Origin: Deferrisoma camini S3R1
GTDB lineage: Bacteria; Desulfobacterota; Deferrisomatia; Deferrisomatales; Deferrisomataceae
Assembly (NCBI RefSeq): GCF_000526155.1
Contig: NZ_JAFN01000001.1
Location: 2,691,014-2,755,013, forward strand
Direction: 5' to 3'
DNA length: 64,000 nt
In this document: positions 2,825 to 58,178 of the stretch, in pieces
Numbering within the stretch: the stretch's first letter is position 1
Layout: the number at the start of each line of letters is the position of its first letter
Made by a program: the position numbers and the translations under genes
Notes under the pieces: model-generated
Told to the model about the DNA's origin: nothing
Seen by the model: the letters and a program-made list of their open reading frames with translations, nothing else
Database searches by the model: none

Positions 2825-4417
2825 ATGTCGCTGAAGACGAAGCTCTCGCTGGTGGTCGCCGTCCTCGTGACCGTGCCCGTGGTGGGGGGAGGAATCACTG
2901 CGTACCAGATCGCCCGCACCCAGGCCTTGGAACAGATGCGCACCGAGGTGGACAACCTCGCCCAGGCGGCGCTCCTCTTATGTGAAGGCTATTACAAGGC
3001 CACCGGCGCCAAGGAGCCCGGCCCGGAGCTGCGCAAGGCCCTTTTGGGACTTCGGGTTGGGGAGACCGGGTACCCTTTTGCCGTCCGGTCGGACGGCACC
3101 ACCGTGCTCCACCCCAAGCTCGAGGGCAAGAACGTCAAGGACGCCAAGGACGCCCGGGGCAAGCCGTTCATCCGGGACATGCTCTCGATGCGGGACGGTT
3201 GGGTGGAGTACTGGTGGCAGAACCCCGGCGAGCCCCGCGCCCGGAAGAAGATCGCCCGGGTGCTCTACTTCGAGCCCTGGGACTGGGTGATCGGGGTGGG
3301 AAGCTATGAGGACGAGTTCCTGACCATCCCCTGGGCCATCCGGGACGTGACGGTGGGTGCCTCGGCCGTGGCGATCGGGATCGCGGTGCTGGTGGGGTTC
3401 TGGTTCGCCCGCGGCGTGGGCAACGCGGCCGGCCAGCTGGGGCAGGCGTTCGAACGCCTGGCCCACGGGGACCTGGGCGCGTCCGTGGAGATCCACCGCT
3501 CGGACGAGCTGGGGGTTCTGGCCCGGGCGTACGGCGAGATGCGGGGCGGGCTCGTCGACCTGATCCGGCGGGTGTCCGAGGCGGCCGGGAGGGTGGCCGG
3601 GGAGGCCCAGCAGATCTCGGCCTCCAGCCAGCAGGTGGCGGGCGGCGCCGACCAGCAGAGCCACAAGGCCTCCGAGGTGGCGGCCGCCGTGGAGGAGATC
3701 TCGGCAACGGTGCTGGAGGTCAGCCAGAACGCCCAGGAGGTGGCCCGAAACGCCCAGCACATGTCCGACGTGGCCCGGGAGGGAGAAGAGATCCTCTCCG
3801 AGAGCCTCGCCCGCATGGACGGCATCGCCCGCATGGTGGAGGGCCTGGCGGCCCGCATCGAGGAACTGGGCGGCAAGACCGAGAGCATCGGCCACGTGAT
3901 CCGGGTGATCGACGACATCGCGGACCAGACCAACCTGCTGGCCCTGAACGCCGCGATCGAGGCGGCCCGGGCCGGCGAGCACGGCCGGGGGTTCGCCGTG
4001 GTGGCCGACGAGGTGCGGAAGTTGGCCGAGAAGACCACCAAGGCCACCAAGGAGGTGGAGGCCACGATCCGCTCGACCCAGGAGGAGAGCCGCCAGGCCG
4101 TGGAGGCCACGGCCGAGGGCCGGGCCCAGGCCGCCCAAGCGCACGAGGTGTTCGACCGGGCCGGCGAGGCGTTCCGAGCGATCCTGGACCGGGTGAACCA
4201 GGTGAGCCAGATGATCGGGCAGATCGCCGTGGCCGCCGAGCAGCAGTCCGCGGCCATCGAGCAGATCTCCAACAACGTGGAGGGGATCGCCACCGTGAGC
4301 CGGGACGTGGCCGGCCAGACCGGGGAGCTGGCCCACGCCGCCCAGGGTCTGGCCGCCGAGGCCCACGGCCTCGAGCGGGCCGTGGGGCGGTTCCGGCTCG
4401 GGGAGGAGGAGGGCTAA
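2825..4417 (+). CDS. Methyl-accepting chemotaxis protein with periplasmic Cache domain
   Basis: A 530-residue chemoreceptor. An N-terminal transmembrane helix (about 7-29) precedes a single-Cache-type periplasmic domain (about 30-165) with typical motifs such as GETGYPFAV and [15 protein letters not shown] second helix lies at about 175-198, then HAMP and a long coiled signalling domain. The CheA/CheW-contacting hairpin tip is clear ([20 protein letters not shown], about 365-385). An SD (ggaggag, eight bases before ATG) supports the start. A sigma-28-like promoter precedes it. Its stop codon overlaps the stop of the convergent tupC-like gene. The ligand is unknown; single-Cache domains often bind small carboxylates, which is family knowledge only. 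Confidence 0.93.
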
Positions 4418-5409
4418 CCTCCCAAAACCCGGACCGCCGTGGCCTTGAACGACGCCACGGCCTCGTCGCCCACGGTGAGCCCCAGGCGCTGCCACGACGA
4501 CCGGGTCACCACGGCCACCAGGCGGGCCCCGCAGTCCAGGGTGACCCACACCTCGCCGTCGGCTACCCGGGCCTCCACCACAGTGCCCCGCAGCCGGTTC
4601 CGTGCCGAGGTCGGCGGAATCTCCCGGGAGAGCACGATCTCCCGGGGGTCCACCTCGATGACCCGGGCATCGGCCGGCAACGGCTCCACCACCACGCGCA
4701 AGGGCCCGGCCACGAACACGTCGCCCCCGTGCCGTTCCGGCTGGCCCCGGAACACGTTGTCGGGGCCGCCGGGTCGTAACACCCCTCCCTCGGCCCGCCA
4801 CACCTCGGCGCCCAACCGCCGGGCCTGGGCCGGGTCGTGGGTGGCCAGGACCACCGTGGTGCCCCTCTGCCGGCGCCAGGCGTCCACCACCGCTTCGATG
4901 CGCTCGCGGCTCTCGGCGTCCAGGTGGTTTAGTGGCTCGTCCAGCAGGAGCACCCGGGGCTCCAGGGCCAGCACCCGCGCCAGGGCCAACCGCTGGGCCT
5001 CTCCCCCGCTCAGCCGGGTGGCCCTCCGGTCGGCCAGGGGCGCGAGCCCCACCTGCTCCAGGGCGGCCGAGAGCCTGGGGGCCACCTCCGGTCCGCGGAC
5101 GCCCCGGGCCCGCAGGGCCCAGGCCACGTTGGCCGCCACCGAGCGGTCGAACAAGTAGGGCGCCTGGGGCAGGTACCCCACGCCGGCGGGCGGTCTTCCG
5201 CCGGGGGAGACCTCGGATCCGAAAAACCAAAGCCGGCCCCCCGAGGCGGGACGGAGAAACGCCAACACCTCCAGCAGCGAGGTCTTGCCCGACCCGTTGG
5301 CCCCCACCAGCGCCACCAGGCCGCCGGCCGGCACCTCGAACCGCTCCAGCCGCAGCACCTCTCGCCCCCCTCGGGCGATCCGCAGCCCCTCGGCCCGGTA
5401 CGCGGTCAT
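4414..5409 (-). CDS. tupC: Tungstate/molybdate ABC transporter ATP-binding protein
   Basis: A 331-residue ABC ATPase energising oxyanion import with the permease encoded just upstream. Walker A is GANGSGKT (about 36-43), the signature is [11 protein letters not shown] (about 137), and Walker B is VLLLDEP. The C-terminal 70 residues form a TOBE-type oxyanion-binding domain. It starts four bases inside the permease gene (ATGA overlap), so translation is coupled. The riboswitch upstream of the pair points to tungstate or molybdate rather than sulfate. The exact ion cannot be read from sequence. Its stop overlaps that of the convergent chemoreceptor by a few bases. Confidence 0.85.
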
Positions 5410-6098
5410 GCCGACCTCCGGCGCAGGGCGAACAACGCCGCGTTCACCCCCAGGGCCACGGACAGGAGCACGATGCCCAGGGCCAGGCCCAGCTCGAACT
5501 CCCCCTTGCTCGTTTCCAGCGCGATCGCCGTGGTCATGGTGCGGGTGTACCCCCGGATGTTTCCGCCCAGCATCATGGCCACCCCCACCTCACCCACCGC
5601 CCGTCCGAACCCGGCCACCAGGGCGGCCAGCACGCCCAGACGGGCCTCCCACAGGGCCATGCGGCCGGTGGCCCAGGGCCCCGCGCCCAAGGCCCGGCAG
5701 GTCTGGAGGAACCGGGGGTCCAGCCCCTCGACCGCGGAGACGACCAGGTTCGTCATCAGGGGCAGCACCAAGAGGAACTCGCCCAGCACGATGCCGGGCG
5801 GGGTGTAGAGGAGGCCCAACCACCCCAGGGGGCCCTGCCTGCCGATCAGGCCGTACACGAGGAGCCCCACCACCACGGTGGGCAGAGCCATGAGGGTGTT
5901 CAGGACCAGCAGGAGGGGTTGGCGTCCCGGGAACCGGCCCAAGGCCACCGCAACCCCGGCCGGCACCGCCGCGGCCGCGGCCAGCGCAGAGGCCGCCCCC
6001 GAGACCCATACGCTCGTGCCCACGGCCGCCCACACGTCGGGATCCAGGCCCGTGAGCAGGCCCCAGGCATGGGACAGGGCGAGAACCAGGTAGTCCAT
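5406..6098 (-). CDS. tupB: Tungstate/molybdate ABC transporter permease
   Basis: A 230-residue integral membrane permease with about five hydrophobic helices and the cytoplasmic EAA-type loop region (GRAVGEVGVAMMLGGNIRGY) that contacts the ATPase. It starts MDYLVLALSHAWGLLTG at ATG 6098, preceded by gaggaggg. A longer in-frame reading to 6440 runs through the riboswitch and is rejected. It is translationally coupled to the ATPase. TupB family proteins are this size and have this GEVG motif. No substrate-binding protein (TupA) gene is adjacent; it would normally be first in the operon. Confidence 0.85.
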   Translation of the reverse strand: MDYLVLALSHAWGLLTGLDPDVWAAVGTSVWVSGAASALAAAAAVPAGVAVALGRFPGRQPLLLVLNTLMALPTVVVGLLVYGLIGRQGPLGWLGLLYTPPGIVLGEFLLVLPLMTNLVVSAVEGLDPRFLQTCRALGAGPWATGRMALWEARLGVLAALVAGFGRAVGEVGVAMMLGGNIRGYTRTMTTAIALETSKGEFELGLALGIVLLSVALGVNAALFALRRRSA

Positions 6099-6153
6099 CC
6101 CCTCCTCGGGCGCCGGGCCGGGGAGCCCGGCCGTGCGAGAACCGTAAGCACGA

Positions 6154-6184
6154 AAAACCCTCCCCGCGAACGGACGGGGAGGGC
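6154..6184 (-). terminator. Intrinsic terminator in the tupBC leader
   Basis: On the minus strand CCCTCCCC, a ten-base loop, GGGGAGGG, then TTTTT. It sits between the riboswitch aptamer and tupB, so it is the probable expression platform: the transcript ends here or continues into tupBC according to ligand binding. Confidence 0.8.
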
Positions 6185-6185
6185 G

Positions 6186-6316
6186 CACACGTTCATCGCA
6201 CCGGTCGGCCCGTCTCCTTTCCGAACGCGGGAGGCCGGGGCGTTTCCACCCCGACCCGTCGGCGAACCGGCCGTGGGCCCCCGGGGGAACCGGTAGGCCG
6301 AGTCGCTCGGAGACAC
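6186..6316 (-). ncRNA. Moco/Tuco-type riboswitch (molybdenum or tungsten cofactor)
   Basis: The minus-strand leader contains the conserved blocks I know from the Moco RNA motif, in order: ctccgag, GCCTACCGGTTCCCC, a variable arm (ggggtggaaacgcccc), CCTCCCG, CGGAAAGGAGACGGG, CCGACCGGTG, and ATGAACG followed by gtgtgcgcc. Distant blocks pair with each other (gggtcgg region with ccgacc). It lies directly upstream of an intrinsic terminator and a tungstate/molybdate transporter, a known context for this class. Tuco variants are said to lack one stem of the Moco form; which type this is needs folding against the covariance model. Confidence 0.82.
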
Positions 6317-6452
6317 AGGGGCAGTCTAGGCCACGGTGGGACGACCCGTCAACGGGCGTACTGCGACGGGCCCGCCGAAGGAGGAACCCCCCTTCGGCCC
6401 TGGGGGGCCCTAACAACGACTTTCGGTGGTCCGGGGCCATTGCCGGCGGCGG
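6317..6452. repeat. Composite intergenic repeat, left part
   Basis: The block ccccccttcggccctggggggccctaacaacgac (from about 6387) matches 2396-2430 and 52440-52470. It is followed by a ccattgccggcggcgggg stretch that leads into the F element, as at 2455-2470. Confidence 0.6.
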
Positions 6453-6602
6453 GGCACGGGTTTCAGGAACCGGAATTCAGCGGACAGGAGACAGGAAATC
6501 CCGAAAAGCAGCTTGAGTTCTCGGGGGGATCCTCTCGGGGGATCGAAGAGCCTTCTTCCTGTCCACCGACTTCTGAATGCTGGCCCCTGAAACCCCATGC
6601 CC
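6453..6602 (-). repeat. F element copy 1 (~150 bp, imperfect terminal inverted repeats)
   Basis: Arms of about 40 bp: tttcaggaaccggaattcag then cggacaggagacaggaa on the left, matched on the right by ttcctgtccaccgacttctgaatgctggcccctgaaa. The two ends carry GGCACGGG and CCCCATGCC. Its reverse complement is, by eye, more than 90% identical to 33080-33228 and clearly related to 57757-57905. It has no credible reading frame, so it looks like a non-autonomous mobile or structured element. Confidence 0.85.
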
Positions 6603-6720
6603 TCCGAGCTTTGGTGCGGCTCAAAGGCCGCCTAGCCGCCTAGCGGGCCGAAGGCCCCAGACCGTTGACCGTTGACCGTTGACCGTTGACCGTAGACCGA
6701 CGACCGAAGTTACATGGAAG
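6603..6720 (+). repeat. C module, heptamer array and A motif
   Basis: The C module (ctttggtgcggctcaaaggccgcc, then cctagcgggccgaaggcccc) is followed by four perfect and two variant copies of GACCGTT (6660-6700), then the A motif GAAGTTACATGGAAG at 6706-6720, ending seven bases before the stop of the hypothetical gene. Confidence 0.85.
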
Positions 6721-6726
6721 GCCCTC

Positions 6727-7248
6727 TCACCAAGAAACGTCGTCTAGGGGCGGAAGGGGAACGATCTCGTCCTCCGACTCCAGCCGGGCCAGCACGGTGT
6801 GCAGGTCGTACTTGCCCACCCGGATCCGGCCGTCCACTAGGGGCCGCACCGGCGGGGCGAACCCGCACCGCACGTGGAGGTCGAGCCGGGGCATCTCGCC
6901 GGGCTCGCTCAGGCAGAACATGCCGGGCCGCTTCAGCAGGTCCTGGTACACACCGTAGATCAGGAGATGGCTCAGGCCCCGGCCCCGGGCCGGGGGCACC
7001 ACGAAGATCAGGGTGTCGTCCAGCACCGACGGGTCCCCGCTGTGGGCCACGGCATAGAACCCAAGCTCCCGGTCCGGCCGGGAGTCCTCCGCCACGGCCA
7101 GCCCGGCCACGAACCGCTCCGGGTCGAACCGGCGGGCAAAGGCCGGCTCCCCAGCGGCCGAGGCGATCCGCTCGGGATCATCCGGCCCGATCGGTGTGAG
7201 CACGTAGTCCTGCCTGCGAAACCGGACCCTGCGTTCCCCGCCGTCCAC
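6727..7248 (-). CDS. Conserved-looking hypothetical protein
   Basis: I do not recognise the family. The product is about 173 residues, acidic, with no membrane segment. The stretch VPPARGRGLSHLLIYGVYQDLL resembles the acetyl-CoA loop and helix of GNAT acetyltransferases (R/Q-x-x-G-x-G/A), but the rest is not diagnostic. I choose GTG 7248 because GGGAGG lies five bases upstream; a longer frame would start with TTG inside a repeat. It stands alone between repeat tracts, followed by F/C/A modules, so no operon context helps. Confidence 0.6.
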   Translation of the reverse strand: MDGGERRVRFRRQDYVLTPIGPDDPERIASAAGEPAFARRFDPERFVAGLAVAEDSRPDRELGFYAVAHSGDPSVLDDTLIFVVPPARGRGLSHLLIYGVYQDLLKRPGMFCLSEPGEMPRLDLHVRCGFAPPVRPLVDGRIRVGKYDLHTVLARLESEDEIVPLPPLDDVSW

Positions 7249-7317
7249 TGGCGCCTCCCATCCTTCCACAGCCGACACTCCGGCAAGTCCCCTGCCCCTC
7301 CGGCACGGGGCCAATCG

Positions 7318-7632
7318 TTTTGAATGCAACTTGGCAACAGGCCCTTCGGGGCCGGGCAGCGGGGAAGGGTAACGTTCCGTGATCCGGGGGCCTTGGCGGC
7401 GGGGGGCGTGGGGCCTGCTGTTCAGGAGCCGGGGTCCGGAGGACAGAGGGCAGAAGCGTAAGGCGCCTCCCCCGATGCGCGAAGCTCTACAGAAAGTGGG
7501 GTGGGAGGCTTTCCTCGCGGCCTACCGGAGCTGAATTCTGACAGCTGGTATGGCCGCGCGCGGCTCTCCAGCAGCCCCCATGCCCCCGAGCTTTGGTGCG
7601 GTTCGAGAGCCGCCCAGCGGGCCGAAGGCCCC
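7318..7632 (+). repeat. Composite intergenic repeat with a decayed F element
   Basis: The sequence begins with the J motif (ttgaatgcaacttggcaa), then a block shared with 2405-2435 (ggggaagggtaac). Next are a ggcggcggggggcgtggggcctgct end, a worn F-like stretch (gttcaggagccgggg ... ggacagagggcagaag ... ctgaattctgacagctgg), half of a G element (ggccgcgcgcggctctccagcagcccccatgcc) and a complete C module that ends three bases before the smpB stop. It looks like partial elements stacked end to end. No gene is seen here. Confidence 0.75.
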
Positions 7633-7635
7633 AAC

Positions 7636-8100
7636 TCAACGGCGGCGCATGGCCCGTTGGATCTCCCGCTGGGCGTCGGCGCGCTTGAGGTCCTCGCGCT
7701 TGTCGTAGTGTTTCTTGCCCCGGCCCAGCCCCAGCTCCACCTTGGCGTGGCCGCCCCGGAAGTACACCCGCAGGGGCACCAGGGTGTACCCCTTCTGTCG
7801 CACCTTCCCGTGGAGGCGACGGATCTCGTACTTGTGCAGGAGGAGCTTCTTGTCCCGGTCGGGGTCCTGCTCCTCCCGCCGGCCGTGGGGGTAGGGGGAG
7901 ATGTGGAGCCCCGAGATCCACGCCTCGCCGTCCTGCACCCAGGCGTAGGCGTCGGTGAGGTTGGCCTTGCCCTCCCGCAGGCTCTTGACCTCGCACCCCC
8001 GCAGAACGAGCCCGGCCTCGAAGGTTTCCTCGATGTGGTAGTCGCGCCGGGCCTTCTTGTTGGTGCACACCACCTTGACGCCCTCGGACCTCTTGGCCAC
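7636..8100 (-). CDS. smpB: SsrA-binding protein SmpB
   Basis: A 154-residue RNA-binding protein that delivers tmRNA to stalled ribosomes for trans-translation. Family motifs are complete: CTNKKARRDYHIEETFEAGL near the start, LREGKANLTDAYAWV, and the basic C-terminal tail GRGKKHYDKREDLKRADAQR. The start is GTG 8100, with GGAGG eight bases upstream; it begins one base after the rseC stop, so the two genes are cotranscribed. No tmRNA gene is visible in this window. Length is normal. Confidence 0.97.
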   Translation of the reverse strand: MAKRSEGVKVVCTNKKARRDYHIEETFEAGLVLRGCEVKSLREGKANLTDAYAWVQDGEAWISGLHISPYPHGRREEQDPDRDKKLLLHKYEIRRLHGKVRQKGYTLVPLRVYFRGGHAKVELGLGRGKKHYDKREDLKRADAQREIQRAMRRR

Positions 8101-32944: not shown

Positions 32945-33079
32945 ACGACCACCGGCCTTCCAAGTAACGTCCGCTAGGACGCTGGGAGGCTAGGACGCTA
33001 GGACGCATGAAAACCTACTTGATTCCAGAGTGTTCCAAGTATGACCCCGCCTCTTTGGCGCCACCTCACGGTCTCTGGG
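32945..33079 (+). repeat. Octamer array and K module
   Basis: An inverted A-like piece (ccaagtaacgtcc) is followed by 8-bp units gctgggag-gctaggac-gctaggac (32979-33003). Then comes the K module catgaaaacctacttgattccagagtgttccaa, also present, inverted, at 48700-48726 and 52352-52388. No gene is seen anywhere in 32694-33735, a gap of over 1 kb. Confidence 0.7.
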
Positions 33080-33228
33080 GGCATCGGTTCCAGGGGCCAG
33101 AATTCAGAAGTCGGTGGACAAGGAGAAGGCTCTTCGGTGCCCCGAGAGAGTCCCCCCGGGAACCCAAACTGCTTTTCGGGATTTCCTGTCTCCTGTCCGC
33201 TGAATTCCGGTTCCTGAAACCCATGCCC
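33080..33228 (+). repeat. F element copy 2
   Basis: Same ~150-bp element as at 6453-6602 but in the opposite orientation: ggcatcggttccaggggcc, ttcagaagtcggtggacaag, a central cttcggtgccccgagag hairpin, then tcctgtctcctgtccgctga and ggttcctgaaacccatgcc. The arms are inverted repeats of each other. A spacer with accgcggaaactgtgcgggg follows. Confidence 0.85.
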
Positions 33229-33397
33229 CACCGCGGAAACTGTGCGGGGATCGGTTCGAGTCACTTCCTCGCAAACAGGCCGCCTCGCGGTCTACTGGAG
33301 CTGACAACCGTCACGGCCCGGGGAAACGGAGTGCAAGCAAGAACCTGACCACCCGCCCCGCGTCCGGGAAACGAGGATCTCGCCGAACGGCGCGGTC

Positions 33398-37684: not shown

Positions 37685-37945
37685 CCTTGTTACTTCGGGC
37701 CTCCGGCCCGCGTGAAGGCTGGAAAGCTGGAAAGCTGGGAGGTTGAAACGCTCCCAGCAACTTCGGTCGTCGGTCTACGGTCAACGGTCTGGGGTCTTCG
37801 GCCCGCCGGGCGGCTAGGCGGCCCGGCGGCTCCCGGGCCTCGACACCAAAGCCTCGGGGGCATGGGGCCTGCTGGAGCGCCCGCCCAACGGCCCGAGATC
37901 CCCGGAATTTCTCTAGTTTCTAGTCTCTAGTGTCTAGTCTCTAGC
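37685..37945 (+). repeat. Octamers plus X module copy 2 inside the trmD-rplS cluster
   Basis: A C-type hairpin (cgggcctccggcccg) comes first, then octamers ggctggaa-agctggaa-agctggga, the inverted A motif (ctcccagcaacttc, 37751-37764), heptamers (ggtcgtcggtctacggtcaacggtc), and the X core with ggcggctcccgggcctcgacaccaaagcctcgggggcatggggcctgctgga. It ends in tttctctagtttctagtctctagtgtctagtctctag. From about 37800 it is almost the exact reverse complement of 47544-47681. Confidence 0.9.
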
Positions 37946-48485: not shown

Positions 48486-48680
48486 CGGCGGCGGGGCATG
48501 GGGTCTGTTTCCGGCCGCGCGCGAAGCCGGGCATGAGATTCGCCGCGCAGGCACGGGGCAGCAACAATGGTTTCATGGCCGTGCGGCCGGGGACGAACGG
48601 TTTCGCGGTGCGAGCGTTGGAGGCGCTGCGCGGCGAGCTAAGGAGCCGCACGCGGCTCTCCAACAGACCCCATGCCCCCC
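48486..48680 (+). repeat. G element copy 2
   Basis: GGCATGGGGTCTGTTTCC on the left and CAACAGACCCCATGCC on the right pair with each other. A compensating change keeps the outer arm paired (GTCTGTT with AACAGAC here, CCTGCT with AGCAG at 2464), which supports a real structure in DNA or RNA. Confidence 0.85.
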
Positions 48681-48830
48681 GACCGTGAGGTGATACCAAC
48701 GATTGGAAATCAGGTAGGTTTCCAAGCATTCTAGCCTCCTAGCTTTCTAGCGTCCTAGCGGAAGTTACTGGGAAGAGCCTTTCAGCCTTCTAGCGGGCCG
48801 ACGGCCCGAATCAAAACCGAAAAGGACGTA
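48681..48830 (+). repeat. J, K, octamer and A modules before proC
   Basis: The order is ataccaacgattgg (J-like), an inverted K module (ggaaatcaggtaggtttccaagcattc), octamers agcctcct-agctttct-agcgtcct-agc, the A motif GAAGTTACTGGGAAG at 48761-48775, and a short C piece (tagcgggccgacggcccg). The proC SD (aaaagga) follows at once. Confidence 0.75.
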
Positions 48831-57680: not shown

Positions 57681-57756
57681 CTTCCCACTAACTTCGGTCG
57701 TTGGTCGTCAGTCGTTGGTCGTCGGTCGAAAGCTCGCCCCGACATCGGAGCCGGGG
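57681..57756 (+). repeat. A motif and heptamers before the histidine phosphatase
   Basis: An inverted A motif (cttcccactaacttc) includes the phosphatase SD. Heptamers cggtcgttggtcgtcagtcgttggtcgtcggtcg come next, then gaaagctcgccccgacatcggagcc, which matches 2657-2690 inverted. Confidence 0.8.
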
Positions 57757-57905
57757 GGCATGGGGATCAGGGGTCAGAATTCAGAAGCCGGCGGACAGGG
57801 AGAAGACTCTTCGGTGCCCCGAGAGGATCCCGCCGGGAACCCAAACTGCTTTGTGGGAGTTCCTGTCTTCTGCCCGCTGAAATTTGGTCCCTGAACCCCA
57901 TGCCC
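57757..57905 (+). repeat. F element copy 3
   Basis: Ends GGGGCATGGGG and CCCCATGCC. Inside: ttcagaagccggcggacagg, ctcttcggtgccccgagagg, aacccaaactgctttgtggg and tcctgtcttctgcccgctga. Same orientation as the copy at 33080, opposite to 6453. Confidence 0.85.
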
Positions 57906-58178
57906 CGCCGCCAACGCCCCCGGATCACTGAACGTTACTTTTCTTCGTTGCCCGACCCCGCAGGGGCAAAGGGGCGTCCACCTCGTCCCCTTCTTGACGG
58001 GTGGCCCCCGCGTCTGTTACCCACACAGGACGATTGGTCTGGGGCCTTCGGCCCGCTGGGCGGCTCTCGAATCGCGCCAAAACTCGGGGGAATGGGGTTT
58101 GCTGGAGAGCCAGCCAAACGGCCCGAGGCCACTGGAATTTCTCTAGTTTCTAGTCTCTAGTTTCTAGTCTTTGGACGG
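57906..58178 (+). repeat. Spacer plus X module copy 4 before dapL
   Basis: The spacer ggatcactgaacgttac is the inverse of 7371-7385. X module: tggtctggggccttcggcccgctgggcggctctcgaatcgcgccaaaactcgggggaatggggtttgctggag, then a ccgaggccactggaatttctctagtttctagtctctagtttctag heptamer end. Nothing else is seen in 57674-58227 except the dapL SD. Confidence 0.85.

Follow-up and report, generated by a model that had tools for sequence, protein, structure and literature searches.

A tungstate transporter probably divided between two distant units with Tuco-type riboswitches in Deferrisoma camini S3R1

How a tungstate transporter is completed and controlled when the gene for its binding protein is not beside it is the question raised by a locus in the genome of Deferrisoma camini S3R1. 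In the window, by which we mean the whole 64,000-nucleotide stretch of DNA that was analyzed, tupB and tupC follow directly on a riboswitch leader and tupA is absent between the leader and tupB, as the original prediction had stated in describing tupBC as lacking its binding protein gene. The elements of this unit, in coordinates of the window, are:

6323..6352, minus strand: sigma-70-like promoter, TTGACG-N18-TAGACT, ending 9 nt 5′ of the conserved aptamer start
6212..6314, minus strand: RF01055 aptamer of the P3-less (Tuco) type, 61.3 bits
6207..6228, minus strand: proposed antiterminator strand GCGTTCGGAAAGGAGACGGGCC, overlapping the P1 3′ strand
6157..6184, minus strand: intrinsic terminator hairpin CCCTCCCC...GGGGAGGG, then a T run, kept in every tupBC leader of the family
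5406..6098, minus strand: tupB, tungstate ABC transporter permease, 230 aa (NF041773, 8.9e-56; NF038017 above cut-off; dN/dS 0.04-0.14)
4414..5409, minus strand: tupC, ABC ATPase with a C-terminal TOBE domain, 331 aa (PF00005, PF03459)

A cmscan search of the whole window gave a single Rfam match, to RF01055 at 6314-6212 of the minus strand (61.3 bits against a gathering threshold of 36, E 2.9e-12), with an alignment that spans model positions 11-121 and has the P3 columns deleted, while the conserved blocks CUCCGAGC, GGAAAC, and GGAAAGGAG are retained. Moco RNA blocks before tupB, and a leader running directly into an intrinsic terminator, had both been read from the bare letters, and both readings stand: the covariance model match is significant, the stem held to separate Moco from Tuco RNAs is missing, which places the RNA in the Tuco type, and the hairpin at 6184-6157 with its T run lies upstream of tupB. 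The interval originally given, 5406-6316, does cover tupB plus the aptamer, but the transcription unit is better described as 6352-4414 on the minus strand. One sigma-70-like promoter was found in the leader stretch against 0.0 expected from shuffles; the single terminator-like site there compares with 0.8 expected by chance and is conserved in relatives. These features support identification of the leader as a P3-less (Tuco-type) member of the Moco riboswitch family with a putative terminator platform.

Within the unit, the start of tupC overlaps the stop of tupB (ATGA), and TupC has the Walker A, signature, Walker B, and H-loop motifs; by analogy with related ModC proteins, its TOBE domain may provide further control by the oxyanion itself. 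TupB scores 189.2 of 320 bits against NF041773, under the curated equivalog cut-off, and the equivalog cut-offs of NF041772 and NF041773 (TupA and TupB, respectively) are reached by no genome of the order. Upstream of the tup leader are a 200-aa open reading frame and smpB. The 200-aa protein (6727-7329, minus strand), positioned between smpB and the leader, has no Pfam or NCBIfam match, and another genome, G004, has a homologue of it ahead of its Tuco-porin-tupABC unit. Intergenic DNA of the window at 6380-6720, 7340-7650, and 2380-2830 consists of mosaics of dispersed repeats, with 6380-6720 matching 33073-33234 over a 163-base stretch (90%) and 57752-57935 over 188 bases (82%), and 2380-2830 matching 48487-48684 over 199 bases (88%). 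Partial copies of these repeats occur in other loci of the genome, and short tandem arrays of GACCGTT, CGCTAGGA, and TCTCTAGTGTCTAG are found in similar intergenic DNA at 6660-6699, 32972-33006, 37910-37944, and 58140-58170.

The genome searched (one contig, 4.24 Mb, 98% complete) contains exactly one TupA and exactly one TupB. The tupA gene is about 250 kb from tupBC, so that the three genes do not form a TupABC cluster, and it belongs to a porin-tupA unit behind tandem P3-less RNAs. RF01055 has three matches in the genome, namely the tupBC leader and two RNAs in series at C1:2444706-2444983 (locus L018; 68.1 and 74.3 bits against the gathering threshold of 36, both without P3), with a clear terminator after the first RNA and a hairpin whose T tail is weaker after the second, followed by a 400-aa Porin_O_P gene and then tupA. 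As the search gave no RF01055 match beyond these three, the detected riboswitch regulon would comprise tungstate uptake alone (porin, TupA, TupB, and TupC). TupA matches NF041772 at 1e-66 with 224.8 of 400 bits, under the curated equivalog cut-off, and matches the solved structures of Geobacter TupA (PDB 3lr1, E 3e-91) and 5my5 (E 4e-63). Its oxyanion-site residues are present (STTTS at 36-40, R147, and T153), corresponding to the membership residues TTTS, R118, and T124, with R147 located where D. alaskensis TupA has R118, the residue that sets oxyanion binding in that protein (PMC5517513).

Two explanations had been offered for the missing gene, that tupA lies elsewhere or that the transporter uses another binding protein, and the position of the only TupA of the genome, some 250 kb away behind its own tandem Tuco RNAs, bears out the former. 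Two ModA homologues are encoded in the genome and one of them could in principle partner TupBC, leaving the distant TupA to serve something else, but we regard this as very improbable: each ModA locus has its own modB and modC, TupA has no other permease, and the next-best permease matches after TupB are ModB-like, at 2e-8. As neither Mod system lacks an A, B, or C component of its own, TupA and TupBC are the sole unmatched partners, and the sensor common to both halves, the conservation of the split, and the single operon in relatives likewise argue against a substitute binding protein. Even harder to credit is a tupBC that is a decaying remnant, left behind when tupA moved, for which it could be said that a relative, G005, retains smpB-Tuco-tupABC at the corresponding position; this is, however, the only TupB of the genome, dN/dS is 0.04-0.15, and the ATPase motifs, promoter, aptamer, and terminator are intact across the genus. 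A complete tup operon elsewhere, with a degenerate copy here, was likewise ruled out, because three species of the genus show an identical split and purifying selection acts on the single tupB as well as on tupC. Our preferred reading, which we hold with considerable confidence, is that one tungstate transporter is split over two distant units that are linked through riboswitches of a single kind.

Relatives allow something to be said about the history of this split. Both loci recur, at 95-98% identity, in the remaining two species of the genus, and within the genus dN/dS for tupA, tupB, and tupC is 0.04-0.15. The sister genus has a tandem Tuco-tupA unit and a separate smpB...Tuco-tupBC unit. 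The split in G003 is read from short contigs. G005, of the same order, has smpB, one Tuco RNA, and tupA-tupB-tupC together with a separate Tuco-porin unit; G004 and G007 have Tuco-porin-tupABC, with the porin of G004 cut short. G008, also of this order, has tupA apart from tupB. The split is repeated in the distant G035, from an unrelated family, with a Tuco RNA on both parts (Tuco-porin-tupA, and Tuco-tupBC elsewhere). The intact smpB-Tuco-tupABC of G005 suggests that tupA moved away, most simply by leaving an operon beside smpB in the family to which the present genome belongs. Several of these loci have further contents. In G008 (L062:5028-8678, plus strand) response regulator and sensor-kinase-like genes stand after Tuco-tupA in place of tupBC. 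A 76-bit RF01055 RNA in G007 (L060:5025-5145, plus strand) precedes a same-strand gene for a PHB/PHA accumulation regulator (PF07879), an unusual target. In G035 a Tuco-terminator-moaE unit (L122:4006-4778, plus strand) has a Tuco-terminator-porin-tupA unit directly 3′; a reading of this locus as a tandem Tuco pair was rejected, because Tuco-moaE and Tuco-porin-tupA are units of their own.

The role of the porin and the identity of the ligand are each subject to more than one explanation. The porin matches Porin_O_P (PF07396) at 57.1 bits against a gathering threshold of 20.9; its profile matched no solved structure in a sequence search, and a search of genome contigs matched relatives only, mostly MAGs. 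Two comparisons give it a dN/dS of 0.11-0.14; the value for the closest pair, which has accumulated few synonymous changes, is 0.54. It could possibly be a porin for phosphate or for oxyanions in general, standing beside tupA by neighborhood only, a tentative reading that would fit a family named after phosphate-selective porins and one relative (G287) positioned beside pst-like genes, as expected of phosphate porins. Against mere neighborhood, 28 of 395 sampled genomes of the phylum encode a homologue at E <= 1e-25, and 13 of these homologues adjoin tupA, across six families, with two more following a Tuco RNA; in the tree, the porin's own clade (support 97/99) consists of tup- or Tuco-linked members only, and three other branches show the link again. 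This linkage across the phylum makes a role in tungstate entry plausible, and we put at about even chances that the porin serves as an outer-membrane channel dedicated to tungstate, such that a cofactor-sensing RNA would control the path through both membranes from two unlinked loci. No report of a porin in tungstate uptake was found in open-licence papers. In G248 (L126:4642-6987, minus strand) a Tuco RNA is followed first by a porin and next by a modA-like reading frame, an order by which the porin link may extend to molybdate. As to the ligand, the P3-less form and the gene content make the tungsten cofactor likely: loss of P3 is the proposed mark of Tuco RNAs, a correlation with exceptions, and P3-less RNAs agree with tungsten use in 17 of 19 organisms (PMC2408646), while here the tungsten-gene association of the subtype is seen in the tup genes directly downstream and in ten AFOR-family tungstoenzyme genes (PF01314) in the genome. 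That the RNAs sense the molybdenum cofactor, or either cofactor, with a transporter serving molybdate as well as tungstate, is unlikely. TupA-type proteins do bind molybdate, more weakly (PMC5517513), and absence of P3 alone is no proof, because the E. coli RNA ceased to regulate, rather than changing its ligand, when P3 was removed (PMC2408646); but P3 is absent from all three RNAs, the site in TupA is of the tungstate type, the genome has the ten AFOR genes already noted, and molybdate has separate modABC sets, both loci being without an RF01055 riboswitch in the genome search.

With tungsten cofactor as the preferred ligand, a switching mechanism may be proposed. The pattern TTGAC-N17/18-TANNNT precedes P1 at all leader starts in families f1-f3 (12/12) and also in G008, with a gap between promoter and aptamer of 6-9 bases in these leaders, and a G+C-rich hairpin with a T run is found 3′ of the aptamer in all leaders of the order except that of G008, which has a weak candidate only. 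Read by eye, the terminator arms vary on both sides between loci yet stay complementary. In minimum-energy folds of transcripts cut before the terminator 3′ arm, 6207-6228 (minus strand) pairs with 6184-6166, like pairing of the candidate antiterminator is found in the leaders of relatives, and at most loci the terminator 5′ arm pairs with the conserved aptamer 3′ strand, which fits an OFF switch. The energy of the antiterminator duplex is not above that of shuffled GC-rich strands in most loci, and for this reason we infer the antiterminator step from its recurrence across loci and from published logic. In the proposed scheme, in which ligand, direction of control, antiterminator, and porin role are all putative, each unit would have a constitutive-looking promoter directly before a P3-less Tuco aptamer. 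When the tungsten cofactor is plentiful, the aptamer would close P1, the terminator would form, and transcription would stop; when it is scarce, the P1 3′ strand would pair with the terminator 5′ arm and permit read-through. The tupBC genes would be under one switch and porin-tupA under two in series, for which a steeper response would be expected, as has been proposed for tandem riboswitches (PMC9481103; PMC2408646). At low cofactor, porin, TupA, TupB, and TupC would all be made, and tungstate could pass through both membranes.

Much of this is familiar, in that the riboswitch class, the P3-less form, tandem copies, and control of molybdenum and tungsten genes are already known. The RNAs described here have the aptamer sequence and fold, the P3-less form, and, putatively, the terminator platform of the Moco/Tuco RNA (RF01055; Regulski et al. 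2008, PMC2408646), and uptake and cofactor genes are control targets in that work as well; the difference is that three RNAs of one genome would here act on two transporter halves and a porin, and no porin is mentioned by Regulski et al. The tandem pair resembles the triple array of S. wolfei (PMC2408646) in having aptamer-terminator units of one kind in series, also before molybdenum or tungsten transport genes, whereas the tandem Wco RNAs in the survey PMC9481103 precede genes unrelated to the cofactor and the pair here precedes porin-tupA. TupABC systems of D. alaskensis, E. acidaminophilum, and C. jejuni have the same TupA site motifs, TupB permease, and ABC ATPase, but in the present genome tupA and tupBC are about 250 kb apart with a riboswitch on each, and a porin gene lies before tupA. 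Similarly, the porin shares a Pfam family with the OprO/OprP phosphate-selective porins (PF07396), but unlike them occurs in linkage with genes for tungstate uptake and with Tuco RNAs. Neither one TupABC distributed over two unlinked units that share a sensor nor a porin in such a regulon was found described in open-licence papers.

No named carrier was found for passage of tungstate across the outer membrane, and the recurring Tuco-porin-tupA order names a candidate. As far as detected, the riboswitch regulon in this genome is concerned with uptake of one metal only, and all components of tungsten uptake are probably switched in concert by one signal, so that a split transporter would be kept in register by a single class of RNA sensor, used once singly and once in series.
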